A DNA stretch of 35,420 bases from a virus. The stretch is from IMG/VR virus record IMGVR_UViG_3300037189_009350, positions 1 to 35,420 of that record; one strand, 5' to 3'. Numbering within the stretch: position 1 is the stretch's first letter; every line of letters starts with the position of its first letter. The notes below the pieces were generated by a model. That model was not told where the DNA came from. It made no database searches and saw only the letters and a program-made list of their open reading frames with translations. This document shows positions 3,839 to 20,612 of this stretch, in pieces. The translations under genes were made by a program, and so were the position numbers.

Positions 3839-3869
3839 GTTTGGAGTATGGTTGGCTTCTTTGTTTATT

Positions 3870-4541
3870 ATGAATCAAGAAATTGAAATTTGGAAAGACG
3901 TATTTGGTTACGAAGGAATTTACCAAGTAAGTAGTTTTGGTAGAATTAAAAGTTTTAAATATAAAAGAGTTAGAATTTTAAAACAAAATAAAAATTTAAA
4001 GGGGCATTGTTTTGTTTATTTATGTAATAAACAAAAACCAATTAAAAAATATGTTCATTTTTTAGTTTATACAACATTTAGCGAATCCAATCCCTATGAG
4101 TTAAATTTAGTAATTGATCATATTGATGGAAATCCATGTAACAATGATTTTATTAATTTACAAGCAATTTCTCATAGAGAAAACATTTCAAAGTCATTAA
4201 GTTTTAATCATACTGAAACAGGAGTTAGTTTTACTGGAAAAAAATATAGTGCAAACATACAAATAAACAAAATTTTATATCCTTTGGGTAGTTTTGATAC
4301 AAAAAAATCAGCTTCTTTGTCATATAAAAAAGCTCTGAATGATTATATAATAAAAAATGAACTTCCAACATATAAATTCAGACAGCATTCAGATTTTGAT
4401 GGAGTTTCTTTTAATATATTAAGAAAAAAGTGGATATGTTATTTTATTGATAAAAATAAAAAAAGAACTCATATAGGCACATTTGTTACTGAACTGGAAG
4501 CTATTTTAGCTAGAAAAAAATATTTAGAAAATAATCTTTAA
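3870..4541 (+). CDS. NUMOD4/HNH homing endonuclease with AP2-like repeats
   Basis: 223 residues from the ATG at 3870; an upstream in-frame TTG at 3852 is possible but would start inside the leader structure. Residues 6-30 are a NUMOD4 motif (WKDVFGYEGIYQVSSFGRIKS). An HNH core follows at about 81-105: VIDHIDGNPCNND and NLQAISHREN, with the His and Asn residues expected for metal binding and catalysis. Two AP2-like DNA-binding segments follow (SFTGKKYSANIQINK..YPLGSF and a second ending HIGTF). Such free-standing enzymes nick or cut DNA near their own insertion site and spread between phages. It separates two otherwise tightly packed genes, as expected for a selfish insertion. Confidence 0.85.
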   Translation: MNQEIEIWKDVFGYEGIYQVSSFGRIKSFKYKRVRILKQNKNLKGHCFVYLCNKQKPIKKYVHFLVYTTFSESNPYELNLVIDHIDGNPCNNDFINLQAISHRENISKSLSFNHTETGVSFTGKKYSANIQINKILYPLGSFDTKKSASLSYKKALNDYIIKNELPTYKFRQHSDFDGVSFNILRKKWICYFIDKNKKRTHIGTFVTELEAILARKKYLENNL

Positions 4542-4553
4542 ACAATAAATACA

Positions 4554-5117
4554 ATGAACAAGAAGCTAGAGTTAAAAAACTTTCAGTTGCGACACTTAAA
4601 GTTAAGTAGTAAAGGTTGTCCTCAAATCGATTGGTTTGACTTGACACAAACAAATGAGTTATTTTCAGTAGAGAGTGATTCGCAACCACACGAAGATTTA
4701 GTTGAAAAACTAAACGAATTGAAATCAGTATTTTCGGAATCATTAGGATTACTTGCTGGATGGAATTTTGCAAGAGAAAACAATCGTAAGAACGAAGAAA
4801 AATTGCAAGAGGCAGTTAGGTTCTACAACGAAGAAATTATGCGTTGTAAAGTATCTGGAGTAACAATTACTGATAAAGGAATTAAGATTAGTGGTTCTTT
4901 GATTTGCGATGAAGGAACGGTAGGATTATCATCACCATTAGTTAAGTTTGTAAATGAAGATGATGAAATTACTATTGGGGAAACTGCCAAAGTAATTGTA
5001 GAAGAATTGCAAGTTGAGGTTTGGAAGTTTATTTATGGAGGCAAACGTGCAGATGATTTGTTTACGGAGCAACCAGACCAAAGTGGATTAAATAACAAGG
5101 ATTTGAAAATTGCTTAA
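4554..5117 (+). CDS. Conserved-type phage hypothetical protein
   Basis: 187 residues. The N-terminal third is mixed; the centre is helical and charged (EEKLQEAVRFYNEEIM), then a strand-rich stretch (GVTITDKGIKISGSLI) and an acidic helical tail. No catalytic motif is recognised. The next gene begins at its last base, so the two are translationally coupled. Position suggests a DNA metabolism accessory. It may have adjoined the RusA-like gene before the homing endonuclease inserted. Confidence 0.65.
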   Translation: MNKKLELKNFQLRHLKLSSKGCPQIDWFDLTQTNELFSVESDSQPHEDLVEKLNELKSVFSESLGLLAGWNFARENNRKNEEKLQEAVRFYNEEIMRCKVSGVTITDKGIKISGSLICDEGTVGLSSPLVKFVNEDDEITIGETAKVIVEELQVEVWKFIYGGKRADDLFTEQPDQSGLNNKDLKIA

Positions 5118-5500
5118 TGGCACAATTCAATCTGAAAATTTGCAAAAGTTGTGGCAATGAATTTAGGCAATACACTTCTTTAGATAAGTGTAAATGTCGC
5201 AGTTCAAAGCCACAACCAAAGCAAAAAAAAGCATACGTTATTCCACAAGTTTCCAAAAAGCGAAAAGTAGAAATGTTGCAATATTCTGTTTTGAGAACAG
5301 AGTTTTTGGCAAATAAAAAAAATCAAGTTTGTCCTATTACAAAACAACCAACTACTGATATACATCATAAAAAAGGGCGTGTTGGCAGTTTATTATTAGA
5401 CACAAGATATTGGGTGGCTTTAAGTAGAGAAGCGCACAAATTTGTTGAGGAAAATCCTGAATGGGCAAAAGAAAATGGTTATTCATTAAATAGATTATAA
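5117..5500 (+). CDS. NinG/HNH-like zinc-binding nuclease
   Basis: 127 residues. The N-terminus has a zinc-ribbon half (CKSCGNEF) and a nearby CKC that could complete the site. The second half carries CPITKQPTTDIHHKKGR, YWVALSREAHKFVEENPEWA and a closing ENGYS, a pattern seen in NinG/Rap-like and HNH-type proteins of Bacteroidota phages: Cys/His pair, an IHHKKGR motif, and a final H..VEENP.WA. Rap-type proteins cut branched recombination intermediates. The order of a RusA-like protein, a NinG-like protein and then a methyltransferase is consistent with a recombination block. It could equally be a different HNH subfamily. Confidence 0.65.
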   Translation: MAQFNLKICKSCGNEFRQYTSLDKCKCRSSKPQPKQKKAYVIPQVSKKRKVEMLQYSVLRTEFLANKKNQVCPITKQPTTDIHHKKGRVGSLLLDTRYWVALSREAHKFVEENPEWAKENGYSLNRL

Positions 5501-5501
5501 A

Positions 5502-6041
5502 ATGACTAAAATAAAAATAGGTTCAGATTTTAGTGGCGTAGGTGCATTTAATCAAGCGTTAATTCGATTAGGAATTGAATATGATGAAGTTTTTGCCTGT
5601 GATATGGATAAATATTCTAGACAAACATTTGAATTAAATTATGGTATTCCAAAAGATTTTCCAAAAGATGTTTACGAGCGTGAAATCCCAAAAGAAAGTT
5701 TGGATATTTACATGACTTCTCCTCCTTGTCAAGCATTTAGTTTAGCCGGAAAAAGGTTAGGAAAAGAAGATAAACGAGGTATATTATTTTTCAATTCATT
5801 AGAATTTATTCAACAAAATAAACCTAGATACTTCATTTTTGAAAATGTAAAAGGATTGCTTTCACACGACAAAGTTGATAAAAATTCTATTTACGGAAGA
5901 ACTTTTCAAGAATGGATTAATTATCTAGGGGGGGGGGTCTGTAAATGGAGTTCATACTTTTTTCCCAATAGAGGATTCAGTGCCATATCATATTTACTTT
6001 CAAGTATTAAATGCAAAGCATTATGGTATTCCGCAAAATAG
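5502..6041 (+). CDS. DNA (cytosine-5) methyltransferase, N-terminal catalytic part (frameshifted)
   Basis: Encodes the SAM-binding and catalytic half of a C5 methyltransferase. Motif I is SDFSGVGAFNQAL, motif IV is SPPCQAFS with the nucleophile Cys at residue 76, and motif VI is FIFENVKG at about 111-118. The frame runs into a ten-G run (5928-5937) at about residue 143. Beyond it this frame yields unrelated sequence and stops at 6041, while the remaining methyltransferase motifs continue in the +1 frame. With nine or twelve G the frames join, giving a complete enzyme of about 541 residues (nine-G case). As written the product is a truncated protein lacking motifs VIII-X and so presumably inactive. 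The enzyme would protect phage DNA from host restriction. Confidence 0.9.
   Translation: MTKIKIGSDFSGVGAFNQALIRLGIEYDEVFACDMDKYSRQTFELNYGIPKDFPKDVYEREIPKESLDIYMTSPPCQAFSLAGKRLGKEDKRGILFFNSLEFIQQNKPRYFIFENVKGLLSHDKVDKNSIYGRTFQEWINYLGGGVCKWSSYFFPNRGFSAISYLLSSIKCKALWYSAK
5928..5937 (+). repeat. Poly-G tract (ten G) inside the methyltransferase
   Basis: Ten consecutive G in a genome that otherwise avoids G runs. Removing one G keeps the frame open from motif VI to motif VIII (reading L-G-G-G-S-V-N-G-V-H). This makes the tract a plausible slipped-strand switch, or a sequencing length error. Confidence 0.9.
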
Positions 6042-7128
6042 AGAACGCATTTTTATAATTGGTATTCGTGATGACTCAGATAATGACTTTCAATTTCCAA
6101 AGTCGTTTCCATTAGAAAAAAGATTGAAAGATGTTCTTGAAAATGAAGTTGATGAAAAGTATTTTTTAGGAGAAAAAACATTAGATTATTTTAAAAGACA
6201 TTTAGAAATTCATAAAGAACAAGGTAATGGATTTGGATTTAAACCGCAATCTGAGGAAGATACTCATTCTAACTCTTTAACTACAAAATATGGAACACGT
6301 CAAAGTGATACTTATTTAAAGATTCAAATAGCAGATTATAGAGCTGATGAAGGTTTAAGAATAAGGGAAGATGGTAATAGCCCTTGTATTACTTCAAGTA
6401 TTAGACATACTGATGAATTTAAGCCAAAAGCAGGAACAAGAAACCCTCCGTTGGTGAATATCACCAACGGAGCTAAAATTAAATCAACAAAAGTTTCAAA
6501 AGAAGTTAGAACAGAAGAGTCAAAATTAATAAGAAAAGATACAGGCACAAATTCTTTTAGAGGCAAAGAAATTGAATTTAGAGAACAAGAATTTATGAAT
6601 ACAATTACCACTTCTTTAACTAATGACCATTTTATTATTTCAACAAACAACTCAAAAGGTTTTGATGAAGCAGAAGAAGAAGAAGATTCAATAAATTTCA
6701 GTAATCCTAATTCAGAAACAAGAAGAGGTAGAGTTGGTAAAAAAGTAAGTCAAACTTTAGATACTCAATGTAATCAAGGTATAGCAACAAAACAATTATC
6801 AAAACAACAACTTGAAAAATTACAGAATTTAGAAGTTGATGAAAATGTTGCTGGTTGTATTACAGAAGCAATAGGCAGAGCAGGTTCAAGTGACGAGTAT
6901 ATTTCAAGTGTAAAAAGAAATGCAATTATAACACAAAGAATTAGACGATTATCTCCAACAGAATGTTTTAGATTAATGGATTTTAACCAAGATATGATTG
7001 AACGAACAATAAGTTCAAAGTTAATATCAGATTCTCAACTTTACAAACAAGCTGGAAATTCAATTTGCGTTGGAGTTTTAGCAGCAATAATAAATAAATT
7101 AAACATTAACATTAACATTAACAATTAA
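5980..7128 (+). CDS. DNA (cytosine-5) methyltransferase, C-terminal part with target recognition region
   Basis: This frame continues the methyltransferase after the G run; coding sequence is open from about 5938, and the GTG at 5980 is only the first start-like codon, not a convincing true start. It begins with motif VIII (LNAKHYGIPQNRERIFIIG). An unusually long target-recognition region follows with several short units each ending in an IT/T-L-type turn, for example NSPCITSSI, MNTITTSL, SQTLDTQCNQG and AGCITEAIG. It ends with motif IX (RRLSPTECFRLMDF) and motif X (QLYKQAGNSICVGVLAAII). The repetition suggests several recognition modules, as in multispecific phage enzymes. It closes in a (CATTAA)n-like repeat and UAA. 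Confidence 0.85.
   Translation: MPYHIYFQVLNAKHYGIPQNRERIFIIGIRDDSDNDFQFPKSFPLEKRLKDVLENEVDEKYFLGEKTLDYFKRHLEIHKEQGNGFGFKPQSEEDTHSNSLTTKYGTRQSDTYLKIQIADYRADEGLRIREDGNSPCITSSIRHTDEFKPKAGTRNPPLVNITNGAKIKSTKVSKEVRTEESKLIRKDTGTNSFRGKEIEFREQEFMNTITTSLTNDHFIISTNNSKGFDEAEEEEDSINFSNPNSETRRGRVGKKVSQTLDTQCNQGIATKQLSKQQLEKLQNLEVDENVAGCITEAIGRAGSSDEYISSVKRNAIITQRIRRLSPTECFRLMDFNQDMIERTISSKLISDSQLYKQAGNSICVGVLAAIINKLNINININN
6446..6472 (+). repeat. Perfect 12-bp hairpin inside the methyltransferase
   Basis: CTCCGTTGGTGA (6446-6457) and TCACCAACGGAG (6461-6472) are perfect inverted arms with a three-base loop. It is locally GC-rich for this genome and lies in the recognition region between two modules. It is not followed by a T run, so it does not look like a terminator. 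Confidence 0.85.
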
Positions 7129-7135
7129 CAATTAA
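7104..7135 (+). repeat. CATTAA/CAATTAA tandem repeat at the methyltransferase end
   Basis: Three CATTAA units followed by two CAATTAA units. They encode the Asn-Ile repeats at the C-terminus, and the stop codon falls inside the repeat, so copy changes would alter only the last residues. Confidence 0.8.
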
Positions 7136-7147
7136 AAACAAAAAGCA

Positions 7148-7468
7148 ATGGCAAAACAAGGCAAAAGAAGAACGTTCTCAATCTGTTTAACAGATATTCC
7201 TAAAGAAAGAATTTTAATTCACGAGAATGGCAAAAAGTATTTGAATTTAGAAAGCTGGGATAATGACGAGCCCGATAAATATGACAACGACTTCTCTGTT
7301 AGAATATCATTAAACAAAGATGAAGTTGAGCGTAAGAAAGCGGGAGAAGAAATCAAAAGCATTTATTTAGGCAATGGTAGAATTTGGGAGCCGGTAAATA
7401 AAATGCACGAAGCTACTCCAGAAGAAGTTGCTCAAATGGAAGAAGATGATTCGGATTTACCATACTGA
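7148..7468 (+). CDS. Hypothetical phage protein with SSB-like acidic tip
   Basis: 106 residues. The N-terminus is basic (KQGKRRTF). The middle looks strand-rich, for example KKYLNLESW, SVRISL and EEIKSIYLGNGRIWEPV. The last residues, EEDDSDLPY, resemble the DDD-I-P-F tip of SSB proteins. It could be a small single-stranded DNA or replication accessory protein, but no OB-fold signature is certain. It is the last gene before a promoter-bearing gap. Confidence 0.7.
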   Translation: MAKQGKRRTFSICLTDIPKERILIHENGKKYLNLESWDNDEPDKYDNDFSVRISLNKDEVERKKAGEEIKSIYLGNGRIWEPVNKMHEATPEEVAQMEEDDSDLPY

Positions 7469-7513
7469 TGTAAATTTATAACATTTGCAAAATAAACTAA
7501 AAAAAGTTTGTTA

Positions 7514-7550
7514 TAAATTTGCACCAAAAGAATTAAATGTTATATATTTG
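7514..7550 (+). promoter_or_regulatory. Tandem TAnnTTTG promoters before the HTH/recombination operon
   Basis: TAAATTTG (7514-7521) and TATATTTG (7543-7550). The TTG at 7519-7521, which is the end of the first box, lies 21 bases before the second box, giving a well-spaced promoter for the gene at 7574. The surrounding AATGTTATATATTTG-CACAA sequence recurs at 34830-34850, suggesting a shared regulator. Confidence 0.6.
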
Positions 7551-7573
7551 ACACAACTTAAAAATCAAATATT

Positions 7574-7801
7574 ATGGCAGAAAATGTAAGGCGAGAAGTC
7601 TATTTGGATATAGACAACACGATGAAAATTATTAGAAGTCGAGGTCGCAAGATTTCGGTAAAGGAAACTGCAAATGAGTTAGGATATTCCACAGTAGGAA
7701 TGATGAACTTACGCAAGAAAGCACCAAAGCAGATTGAGGCTTTATATTGGTATTTAAAAGACAATATGTTGACTTTTGAGGATTTGGTAAAAGAACGATA
7801 A
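7574..7801 (+). CDS. Small helix-turn-helix protein, possible phage transcription regulator
   Basis: 75 residues. Residues 25-62 hold a helix-turn-helix type pattern, VKETANELGYSTVGMMNLRKK, in which Glu-Leu-Gly-Tyr-Ser spans the turn, followed by a helical region. The N-terminus is basic. It is the first gene behind a strong promoter and precedes the recombination genes, as a Cro-like or autoregulatory switch protein might. The palindrome-like sequences near its promoter could be its targets. Assignment of a DNA-binding role is reasonable; the specific function is inferred. Confidence 0.65.
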   Translation: MAENVRREVYLDIDNTMKIIRSRGRKISVKETANELGYSTVGMMNLRKKAPKQIEALYWYLKDNMLTFEDLVKER

Positions 7802-7829
7802 TAAGTAAAAACAAAAAACAGCAAAAAAA

Positions 7830-9176
7830 ATGAGTGCAGAAACACAAGTAGAAGTATTTGGAACAAAAGAAGTTTCAGTAAAAGAGTTCATGGGTTCAAG
7901 CGATAAAAGTTTAGTGCTTTTATCTGACTATGAGAAAGCCAAAGAAAATTTGGAGCAATTAAAAGACAAGCATCAATCAAGGGTTGAAGAACTTGTAAGT
8001 ATTGAAAAGCTTTCTCCAGAGGAAAACAAAGAATTAAATAGTATTCGTGCTGAACTTAGAGAGCCGAGATACTTAATTCAGAACATTGAGAAAAACAACA
8101 TTTCAGTATTTGAGGCTTACAAAAAAACAGACAAGGCAAATTTAAAAGGCTTGATTGAAATTAATGTTGATTTGGAGGATAAGGCTACCGAGAAACTTCA
8201 AGCAGAGGACAAGCGTAAAAAAGAGGAAAAGGAAGCGGAAGCAAAGGCAGATGAATTGCGTATTGCCAAAATTAAAAATGTTATTGATACTATTGAAACT
8301 TATTGCTATGAAGTAATTCAGAAAATGACTTTTGAAAACCTTGAAATTTCTACGGCTTTAGTTGAAAAAAGTTTAAATGAAGAATATGATTTTGAGGAAT
8401 TTTATTTGCTTTTAGACCAAGTAAAAGAGCGAGTAGTAAAACAGTTACTTGAAAAAACAAATGACATTACTCAAAGGGAAAATCAAAGATTGGAAAATGA
8501 GGCAATGAAAATAGAGATTTTTGAAGTTCGTTTGAATCGTTTGAAAGAAGTTGGATATTTTGCGGATGGTTTAGGAAATTTTGTTCATCCTGATTTTTCT
8601 ACATTTTTGGAAAAAGATGGTGTTTATAATTGCACTTCCGAAGTGTTTGAAAAAATATTGTCAGATACTAAATTAGCTTTAGGGCAAATTGAACAAGCTA
8701 AGCGTGATGCTGAACTTAAAAAGCAAAAAGACCAGCAGTTTGAAATTCGTAAAAATAGACTTGCTGAAATTGGATTTATTTACAACGGAGGAATGTATTT
8801 TTATTTTAAACTTGAAGGCAACACCACAAATGTTTCTGATGCTACCATAGAAGCAATTTTAATTCAGGAAGCGGATGTTATAAATTTTGAGCAAAGATTA
8901 TCTAATGCAAAGTTATTGATTGCTGATATTAAAAAGCAAAAAGCAATTGATTTAAAATTAGCCGAAGAAGATGCTGAACGTTTAAAAAAGGAAAACAAAG
9001 CAAGAGTAAAGCGTTTGGCAAAAGACAAAGAAATAATTGCAAAATCATTTGAGGTTTACTTTGCAGACTTGCATTTGGAAACGGAAAACCAAGAAACAAA
9101 GGATTTTATTTCTTTTGCTAATTTACAAATTGAAGAACTAAAATCAGATTTACTAACTAAATTAAACGAATTGTAA
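7830..9176 (+). CDS. Coiled-coil protein upstream of RecT (recombination-associated)
   Basis: 448 residues. The first half is highly charged and helical with long coiled coils (KRKKEEKEAEAKADELRIAKI). The second half contains two related units, RLNRLKEVGYFADGLGNFVH and RKNRLAEIGFIYNGGMYFYF, each followed by a linker and a charged helix, so an internal duplication. It stops one base before the RecT-like gene and is probably co-translated with it. Coiled-coil proteins often sit next to RecT-type annealing proteins in phages, but no nuclease motif is visible here. Exact function unknown. Confidence 0.7.
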   Translation: MSAETQVEVFGTKEVSVKEFMGSSDKSLVLLSDYEKAKENLEQLKDKHQSRVEELVSIEKLSPEENKELNSIRAELREPRYLIQNIEKNNISVFEAYKKTDKANLKGLIEINVDLEDKATEKLQAEDKRKKEEKEAEAKADELRIAKIKNVIDTIETYCYEVIQKMTFENLEISTALVEKSLNEEYDFEEFYLLLDQVKERVVKQLLEKTNDITQRENQRLENEAMKIEIFEVRLNRLKEVGYFADGLGNFVHPDFSTFLEKDGVYNCTSEVFEKILSDTKLALGQIEQAKRDAELKKQKDQQFEIRKNRLAEIGFIYNGGMYFYFKLEGNTTNVSDATIEAILIQEADVINFEQRLSNAKLLIADIKKQKAIDLKLAEEDAERLKKENKARVKRLAKDKEIIAKSFEVYFADLHLETENQETKDFISFANLQIEELKSDLLTKLNEL

Positions 9177-10146: not shown

Positions 10147-10884
10147 ATGAACAACAAAGCAAATAGGGTAGCAAGGTTTACATCAAGTAAGATTTCAGCT
10201 TTAATGGTTGATGGGAAAGGTCAGTATGGTTTTGGTGCAGGAGCTATCACCTACATTAATCAGAAGTTAATGGAGCTTGAATTGGGTAGAGGAATATCAC
10301 TTCCTGTAAACAAGTGGGAAATGAATTGGGGTCATCTCTGGGAAGTTTGGGTTCATTGGCAGTTGGGTAATGATTATGAATTAGTAATTGACAAAACAAC
10401 TATTAATCCTAAAATGGAGTGGCATAGTGGTTCGGAAGATTTTCAAGTTAAAATTGAAGGAGGTTGTATTTCGGAATTGAAGTGTTACCAAATGGAAAAT
10501 CACTACAAATATTCAAAGTGCCTAAAGAAACAAGATATTGAATTGTTCAAAAAAGAATTTCCAGCTGAATTTTGGCAAATTATATCGAACAGTCTTATTC
10601 ACAACACAAAGTTTGGAGAAGCTATTGCATTTATGCCTACGGAAGAAAACTTAATTGAAATGCGAAAATTAGTTGAAGAAACTGACTACATAGAAAAGCA
10701 TATTAAAGATGATCCGTTCAAGTATAAATTTGTTGTTGATAGAGATTTATGGGATTTACCATTTATTCCAAGTCATTCAGATTTTCCAAGTATGACCAAG
10801 TTTAGATTTGAAGTTCCTCTTAATGATAAGATTAAACTCATAGAGCGTTTGAATAAGGCAAACAAACTTTTAAACGAAATGTAA
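10147..10884 (+). CDS. YqaJ/lambda-Exo-like PD-(D/E)XK exonuclease
   Basis: 245 residues. The catalytic site is GCISELKC, where Glu-x-Lys in SELK matches the (D/E)XK of phage alkaline exonucleases; upstream there is SGSEDF as the probable acidic residue of the same site. An opening segment with TSSKISALM and GAGAITYINQKLMEL matches the N-terminal helices of YqaJ-like recombinases, and a Gln-rich segment after the motif (EFWQIISNSLI) is also typical. The enzyme would resect DNA 5' to 3' and pass the single strand to the RecT-like protein. Starts one base after the broken small gene. Confidence 0.8.
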   Translation: MNNKANRVARFTSSKISALMVDGKGQYGFGAGAITYINQKLMELELGRGISLPVNKWEMNWGHLWEVWVHWQLGNDYELVIDKTTINPKMEWHSGSEDFQVKIEGGCISELKCYQMENHYKYSKCLKKQDIELFKKEFPAEFWQIISNSLIHNTKFGEAIAFMPTEENLIEMRKLVEETDYIEKHIKDDPFKYKFVVDRDLWDLPFIPSHSDFPSMTKFRFEVPLNDKIKLIERLNKANKLLNEM

Positions 10885-17603: not shown

Positions 17604-18812
17604 ATGACAAATACTGAAATTAAAGATTTTGTTAACGATAATATTCGCCAAAAAACAACTCCTAGCAGTATAACAAAGGAAAATGTTGCTAGTGCTTTTG
17701 ATCAAGTAGTTGATTATGTTGATGAGTCTACACAAGGCATTACACAAGGACCAGCAGGACCACAAGGTGTTGAAGGGCCAGCAGGACCTCCCGGTCCAGT
17801 TGGACCAGCAGGATTAGAATGGCAAGGTACGTGGGTATCAGGAACTTCTTATGTAGCTGATGATGCGGTAGGGTACGACGGAGCTTCATGGTTTTGTATT
17901 TTAGCAACTTCGGGAACAACTGCTCCTGATGTTGATAATACGCATTGGGCGTTATTAGCTTCTCAAGGTGCAATAGGACCACAAGGTGCTCAAGGGCCAG
18001 CAGGACCAGCAGGACCAGCAGGTTCGCAAGGACCAAGAGGTTTTACAGGAGATGATGGATTGCAAGGAGAACAAGGACCACAAGGAGAACAAGGACCTCC
18101 GGGAAGCAGTGTATCTTTAACAAACGCAACAATTGCTGGTGGAACTTTTAATGCGCCAGTAGCTATAACAGTAGATGTTCTTACTACAAATATTGCTGAC
18201 AGTCAAAACAATTATTATTCAGTTCCAAATTATACAAATGACCAAAGTAAAATAGGAAAAAAAATATTTATTAGAAACTCAAGCGTTTATCGTGCAGAGA
18301 TAAAAGGAGAAACTGGTGTAAACACAACATTTTACATAAACACTACAGTTTTGCCTAATGGAAATGAAAATTTTCAAAATCCTTTAGCATTAGATTCAAA
18401 GAGGTCTACTGAATTAACATATTTAGGTAATATTGGTGGATTTGAAAGATGGTCATCTCATTTATTATTTGCTCCAAGAACAGCAACTACAGGAAGTTAT
18501 GGAACAGTATCATTGGCGCTTATTAATTCATCTAATGTCAATAGCGATATTAGCGAAGTAACACCCAATAACGCTACTGATAATTACATAAGATTATTTA
18601 CAGGTTTTACTAATGTTGGAGAGTCAGTTATAGTTACAAATAATTCTGCCACAATAGACATTAGATTATTGGGAACTCCATTATGGCATTATTTAATATT
18701 GGGATTAAATTATCAGACAGTTCCTTATGTTTTACCTGCTGGAAAAAGTGTAAGGTTTACAAAAGGACCAAGTTCTTTTTACTTTATCGCAGAGATAATA
18801 AGTTATAATTAA
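17604..18812 (+). CDS. Collagen-like repeat protein with inserted carbohydrate-binding-like domain
   Basis: 402 residues. N-terminus 1-45 ([20 protein letters not shown] and VVDYVD) resembles anchoring segments common to Bacteroidota phage fibres. Residues 49-72 form about eight Gly-X-Y triplets ([20 protein letters not shown]). Residues 73-121 ([20 protein letters not shown], then HWALLA) resemble a small chitin/carbohydrate-binding module. Residues 122-169 hold sixteen more Gly-X-Y triplets. The remaining 230 residues are strand-rich and unrecognised. It may be a fibre or whisker attached to the tail for host-polysaccharide contact. It lies between the sheath and tube genes, an unusual position for a fibre. 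Confidence 0.75.
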
Positions 18813-19895: not shown

Positions 19896-20612
19896 ATGGC
19901 AGAAAAAATTGATAGAACTGGAGAAGTCATAAATGAGGTAAAAATATACGCTTATCGAACGGCTAAAGACTTGGATGTTATATTTCCAGATGGAACTATT
20001 GTTTTAAATAAAAAATATTGTCATTTTAAAAACTCAAATATTAAAAACCCAAATAGTCCAATAGTTTTTGGAGTAGGATATTTTGGAGTTGGAAAATATA
20101 ACCATAAGGACAATAAAAAACTATCTCAAACTTGGTTAGGAATGATGCAAAGATGTTATAGTTTAGAATTTAAAAAAAATAGACCTACCTATAAAGATTG
20201 CACTGTACATTCAGATTGGCATAACTTTCAGAATTTTGCAGAATGGTTTGAAGAAAATTATATTGAAGGATATTGTTTAGATAAAGATTTTACTATAATG
20301 GATAATAAAGAGTATTCTGAAAAAACATGTAAATTTATACCGAATGAAATTAATGTTATTTTAACCAATGTATCTAGTTCTAATAAAAAGTATTTAGTTG
20401 GAGTTAATTTACATAAAACAGGTAAGTTTCAAGCAACATTAAGTATTAAAAACAAACGTGTTTATTTAGGTTTGTTTGATAAAGAAATAGATGCTTTTAT
20501 TGCTTATAAAAAATCAAAAGAAGCCTATGTAAGGGAGCAATTAATTGTTTTTAGAAATGAAATTGGGGAAGTTATTTTTAATAATTTAATCAATTATAGT
20601 ATTAACCAATAA
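19896..20612 (+). CDS. HNH-like homing endonuclease with AP2-like C-terminus
   Basis: 238 residues. The centre shows the pattern WLGMMQRCYSLEF, YKDCTVHSDWHNFQNFAEWF and LDKDFTIMDNKEYSEKTCKF followed by IPNEINVIL, seen in a family of phage HNH-like endonucleases. The C-terminus (GVNLHKTGKFQATLSIKN, then RVYLGLFDKEIDAFIAYKKS) is an AP2-type DNA-binding domain. It resembles the AP2-like segments of the endonuclease at 3870. It separates the chaperone and tape measure genes, which are adjacent in relatives. A selfish element is the likely reading. Confidence 0.75.
   Translation: MAEKIDRTGEVINEVKIYAYRTAKDLDVIFPDGTIVLNKKYCHFKNSNIKNPNSPIVFGVGYFGVGKYNHKDNKKLSQTWLGMMQRCYSLEFKKNRPTYKDCTVHSDWHNFQNFAEWFEENYIEGYCLDKDFTIMDNKEYSEKTCKFIPNEINVILTNVSSSNKKYLVGVNLHKTGKFQATLSIKNKRVYLGLFDKEIDAFIAYKKSKEAYVREQLIVFRNEIGEVIFNNLINYSINQ

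Follow-up and report, generated by a model that had tools for sequence, protein, structure and literature searches.

A ten-G tract splits a C5-cytosine methyltransferase gene in a temperate phage and is a candidate phase-variation switch

The stretch of DNA analysed here, a 35,420-nt virus record (IMG/VR IMGVR_UViG_3300037189_009350) with a GC content of 30.8%, is referred to below as the window. Its gene content includes a tyrosine integrase (57–860, + strand; PF00589, E 7e-38), major capsid protein E, a tail sheath, a tape measure and a baseplate hub, and the presence of an integrase together with capsid and tail genes identifies a temperate contractile-tailed phage. Within this genome, a gene for a C5-cytosine DNA methyltransferase (MTase) is flanked by two conserved neighbours on the + strand. 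The upstream neighbour (5117–5500; phrog_7108) is a small protein that reads by eye as HNH-like, and the downstream neighbour (7148–7468; phrog_24909) forms the right edge of an exchangeable MTase slot. Elsewhere in the window, the ORFs at 3852–4541 and 19896–20612 have the look, by eye, of HNH/AP2-type homing endonucleases, and 17604–18812, which adjoins the tail genes, encodes a 402-aa protein with collagen-like GPxGPx repeats.

The MTase gene is distributed over two reading frames of the + strand. The first ORF (5502–6041, 179 aa) encodes the N-terminal half (5502–5927), crosses a run of exactly ten G at 5928–5937 and ends in a short tail (5938–6041, stop codon 6039–6041) that is out of frame when compared with relatives. 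The C-terminal half follows in the +1 frame (5941–7128), which is free of stops for 382 codons 3' of the tract. Both halves match Pfam DNA_methylase (PF00145) and TIGR00675. The PF00145 profile is covered from position 5 to 130 by the first half (E 5.9e-30) and from 131 to 248 by the second (E 2e-26); since the two ranges abut, the tract is exactly where the profile is interrupted. The first half holds motif I (DFSGVG, 5526–5543), the catalytic PPCQ of motif IV (5721–5732) and ENV of motif VI (5841–5849). The second half holds motif VIII (QNRER, 6034–6048), a variable target-recognition region (approximately 6200–6760) and a motif IX/X tail with QAGNSI of motif X at 7048–7065. The motif set I, IV, VI, VIII, IX and X is present and ordered but lies across two frames, and the assembled sequence, broken at 5928–5937, provides no single ORF for the enzyme. 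One G less or two G more rejoin the frames, and a run of nine (G9) yields a single frame some 541 codons long. The first-pass annotation, made from the sequence alone, had described a ten-G run in an AT-rich genome, placed between motifs VI and VIII of a C5 MTase whose halves would be rejoined by removal of one G, and this description is borne out in each particular.

The tract is bordered by CTA on its 5' side and by TCTGTAAATGG on its 3' side. It is the sole G or C run of at least six bases in the window, where the second-longest G run is five and all C runs are shorter than five. A first-order Markov model predicts 0.002 G runs of ten or more for the window, so that the occurrence of G10 inside an ORF is beyond chance, as for the homopolymers of simple-repeat phase-variable genes. 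The tract stands where relatives have GGN GGN AAR (Gly-Gly-Lys) and shifts the frame by +1. GGG is the rarest glycine codon of the window genome (18 of 414), and three consecutive GGG codons are therefore not due to codon preference. By frame arithmetic, a change in tract length would toggle the gene between intact and broken while both of its parts, judged by selection, are otherwise kept, as expected of a phase-variable gene.

Both halves of the MTase carry the signature of purifying selection. Measured against the relatives L089, L003, L004 and L090, dN/dS is 0.07–0.10 before the tract, 0.05–0.13 from the tract to the variable region and 0.10–0.22 in the tail, and the changes on the window branch are alike on both sides of the tract. 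The equally low values indicate that the two halves were kept together until recently. The gene contains no further stop or frameshift and does not have the appearance of a pseudogene, although a very recent death would look identical. Of the genes compared with their counterparts in the syntenic L091 and L003, only the MTase changes frame. From these comparisons, the break is recent relative to the divergences considered, or not permanent.

IMG/VR contains hundreds of relatives, and the protein of the first half is 88–91% identical to those of L089, L003 and L004. The gene is intact in 113 of approximately 121 relative loci checked. Across 100 relatives, the tract site reads Leu-Gly-Gly-Lys; the longest G run that any of them has at this position is five, and even the one closest to G9 is four substitutions away from it. 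A variable G run at the same place in close relatives had been proposed as a sign of switching, and a fixed ten-G run in all of them as a sign of a dead gene; neither pattern is present, as none of the 100 has a poly-G run at the site. All 91 relatives that have the motif carry the lysine after Gly-Gly, which is also invariant in an alignment of 24 sequences. The G9 form of the window MTase has glycine in this position.

Further scans place the tract on a single record. A pattern scan for poly-G before TCN-GTN-AAY found no other MTase record, only six unrelated loci, and a scan of the collection for the same flanks with any insert length found no record. The collection, in which very near records may be hidden from a search, yielded no second record of the window's phage, and G runs of at least eight are absent from MTases of the window-type family besides the window's own. 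As far as these sequences go, the tract is private to the window's phage and young, and its origin probably took several mutations. The phage has Flavobacteriales-type relatives. Four relatives of the MTase occur in host genomes (Chishuiella, Flavobacterium and two other MAGs), all intact, and among 396 genomes from the same order just two contain a close copy. Among annotated phage records, the best match to the first half has 44% amino acid identity. An AlphaFold model of the MTase of L089, a relative, has low overall confidence (mean pLDDT 54), though blocks around the tract site reach approximately 83–90, and predicts the Gly-Gly-Lys site to lie in a loop after a helix.

The slot occupied by the MTase was compared in sister phages, using eleven relatives retrieved via the protein encoded at 10147–10881 of the window. 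The closest syntenic phage, L244, shares 76–90% DNA identity with the window in most syntenic blocks (some 17 kb); its slot holds an SSB gene (L244:4163–4588) and no MTase. L004 and L005, which are the same contigs as L239 and L240, carry a window-type MTase with a GAA to TAA nonsense change in the target-recognition region (near L004 position 6721). Outside the slot, L238 and L239 share 99.97% identity over 7.6 kb, but in L238 a different C5 MTase has been swapped into the slot (L238:374–1442). This MTase is frameshifted by a 3.4-copy array of the 10-bp unit ATATTAAATC, of which the third copy was gained. Judging from these contigs, the slot exchanges MTases that are often disabled, two (counting that of the window) by repeat-length change and one by point mutation, in a sample that is small and in which the window itself is part of the reason for choosing the slot.

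G and C tracts are abundant in a related MTase family, here termed family B, whose first matches (L113, L114 and L131) are approximately 39–47% identical to the window MTase and to which the loci L143–L222 and L227–L234 were added. At 78 family B loci, 46 tracts of at least eight G lie in 106 kb of MTase sequence (1.2 expected) versus 39 in 612 kb of flanks, and 25 tracts of at least nine G lie in the MTases versus 0.3 expected, counts that do not represent independent events because the loci are mutually related. Part of the flank tracts sit, by eye, in pieces of MTases, including adenine-type enzymes. In both family B phages tested, GGG is again the rarest glycine codon. Of the 15 family B contigs tested, 4 have a portal match and 8 a terminase match, so that tailed phages make up at least some of them. 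The record of L176/L227 has an apparently isolate-type IMG number, and so perhaps not all family B records come from metagenome assembly. Annotated phage records gave no useful match to the family B gene. L114 was considered as a case of an MTase broken by a G tract and rejected: its frame shift lies just upstream of its G9 and is not counted here.

The family B tracts differ in length between phages that are otherwise nearly identical, and in pairs of such phages nearly all indels lie in the tracts. L229 and L231 have 181 mismatches over 8,693 aligned bases and two indels, both in G/C tracts; L229 and L227 have 137 mismatches over 8,696 bases and two indels, both in MTase tracts. The single indel between L169 and L172 (6,911 bases, 69 mismatches) is in a C tract, and two of the three between L182 and L185 (6,196 bases, 15 mismatches) are in G tracts. 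More diverged blocks of these contigs also carry ordinary indels. The length changes alter the frame: tract 1 (near locus position 4715) is G8 and in frame in L227 and L229, and out of frame as G9 in L231 and G10 in L234, while tract 2 of the same group alternates between G8 and G7. Close relatives in family B thus show the tract-length variation of phase-variable genes, as differences between consensus sequences rather than within one sample. Hardly any other kind of indel accumulates as fast as these length changes, so the phages probably exploit or tolerate a flickering of the enzyme between on and off. We infer with solid support from these alignments that G tracts slip in family B phage MTases, and by analogy with them the G10 of the window is a credible single-tract case.

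Our preferred reading, to which we assign an even chance, is that the window carries a slippage-prone OFF allele of an otherwise well-kept phage MTase and that the allele acts as a switch. The tract would be real and recently formed, and the assembled genome would represent the OFF state. As the phage or prophage replicates, slippage of the polymerase would add or remove one or two G: a run of 9 or 12 would give back a single reading frame, whereas 10 stops the protein about 34 codons past the tract and 11 would also leave it broken. If the restored enzyme is active, the phage population would comprise methylating and non-methylating members, a mixture that may be useful where restriction and methyl-dependent restriction vary from host to host. 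As the integrase marks the phage as temperate, the MTase could act both on virion DNA and in the prophage.

A slippage-switched phage MTase is also what the first-pass annotation had proposed, and the proposal stands in part. It gains from the tracts of family B, which vary in length and frame between near-identical phages; it does not gain from the window's own tract, which is found in no relative, or from the G9 form, in which the invariant lysine is gone, or from the sister phages, whose MTases are disabled in other ways. These latter observations fit plain gene loss as well. In that case the MTase would be exchangeable cargo that is repeatedly inactivated, and the G run would be one such change, not kept as a switch, alongside the broken or empty sister slots (GAA to TAA in L004/L005/L239/L240, the 10-bp repeat gain in L238, an SSB gene instead in L244). 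However, both halves of the window gene still look selected and are without further damage, two of the three broken copies arose by repeat-length change, which is of a reversible kind, and MTases of the window-type family are intact in most relatives. We consider loss unlikely, if well worth bearing in mind.

The G10 state could also be a homopolymer miscount or assembly error, with a true run of nine and a gene that is always on, as the first-pass annotation had allowed. Homopolymers are the commonest site of error, and the rest of the contig is without frame change. Yet G9 would itself be unusual and slippage-prone, and as even G9 requires at least four substitutions from any relative, the site is not an ordinary one with a single miscounted base. 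Poly-G tails of two-colour Illumina sequencing sit at read ends, and a join made through them would be expected to give poly-C on the right-hand side; the divergence from relatives is equal on both sides of the tract and there is no obvious chimera. For the same reasons, we rejected a poly-G artefact that fused two contigs. We consider a length error improbable, above all a pure one-base error in an ordinary gene. Some full-length enzyme could in principle also come from G10 itself, through programmed ribosomal frameshifting (+1) or through slippage in transcription along the run, because a glycine tRNA that has slipped by +1 on G10 can pair again and the frame is restored by such a shift. The slippery site is nevertheless found in no relative and the gene is continuous in 113 of them, so that the arrangement is not conserved, and we regard this explanation as very improbable.

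An OFF allele of a slippage-switched MTase, as we propose it, would join two documented phenomena, poly-G switching of phage receptor-binding proteins and of bacterial MTases, and the new element here is the phage MTase candidate. According to a passage in a 2025 review (PMC11868660), phages phase-vary receptor-binding proteins by simple repeats, for which it cites a study of hypermutable polyG tracts in phages of Campylobacter (Sorensen et al. 2021, Cell Rep 35:109214), work that is also cited in a passage of PMC8713573. As portrayed in these passages, the Campylobacter Fletchervirus phages likewise carry a poly-G tract that switches a gene, with slippage giving rise to phage variants. They differ from the window in that the genes encode receptor-binding proteins and switching is seen by plaque morphology, whereas the window has a candidate tract, known from sequence, in a DNA MTase. 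Poly-G switching of bacterial MTases is well known (e.g. PMC12003011). In the Mod enzymes of Helicobacter and the Mod phasevarions of Moraxella, poly-G or another simple repeat in the MTase ORF sets by its frame whether full-length enzyme is made (PMC12003011, PMC5700931, PMC6902483). However, these are bacterial Type III m6A enzymes fixed in the host lineage, while the window has a phage C5 enzyme with a tract on one contig only. Orphan phage C5 MTases (PF00145, TIGR00675, phrog_116) share the catalytic motifs and include the enzyme of Bacillus phage SPR, which is among the tblastn relatives (38%); a G tract is not reported for them, and family B adds tract-laden target-recognition regions. 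Searches of the open-licence PMC literature turned up no description of phage MTases with poly-G tracts, and the terms phase variation, frameshift and homopolymer are absent from a long-read study of methylation in gut phages (PMC10477858). If the switch is true, a single phage population would contain modified and unmodified genomes, a hedge between restriction and methyl-dependent restriction.

The broader pattern is one of phage C5 MTases rich in G/C tracts, the lengths of which vary among phages that are nearly identical in other respects. In L148, approximately 14 tracts lie at 5478–8182 with modules in all three frames, and L161:5571–7437, L147:5583–6550 and L113:6447–7639 contain similar target-recognition arrays, in which the G/C tracts number up to about 14 and modules again occupy three frames. 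These four arrays may serve to switch specificity in a combinatorial manner, or may store modules silently. An excerpt of a study on Helicobacter canadensis (PMC2823697) describes C-terminal sequence switching, in which homopolymer length likewise selects the reading frame at the protein end; these are bacterial genes, and a possible analogue of the many-tract family B MTases rather than of the single-tract window gene. Slippage tracts could even serve phages in general as a means to diversify cytosine methylation. Frame changes would then pick among target-recognition modules separated by up to about 14 tracts, which would yield methylation specificities in many combinations, and the window gene would be a one-tract ON/OFF version, a generalization that we put forward tentatively and consider rather doubtful. 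Two family B loci also have tracts in frame inside adenine-type (DPPY) MTases, a G9 at L114:2563 and a G8 at L165:7202, and tracts may therefore not be limited to C5 enzymes.
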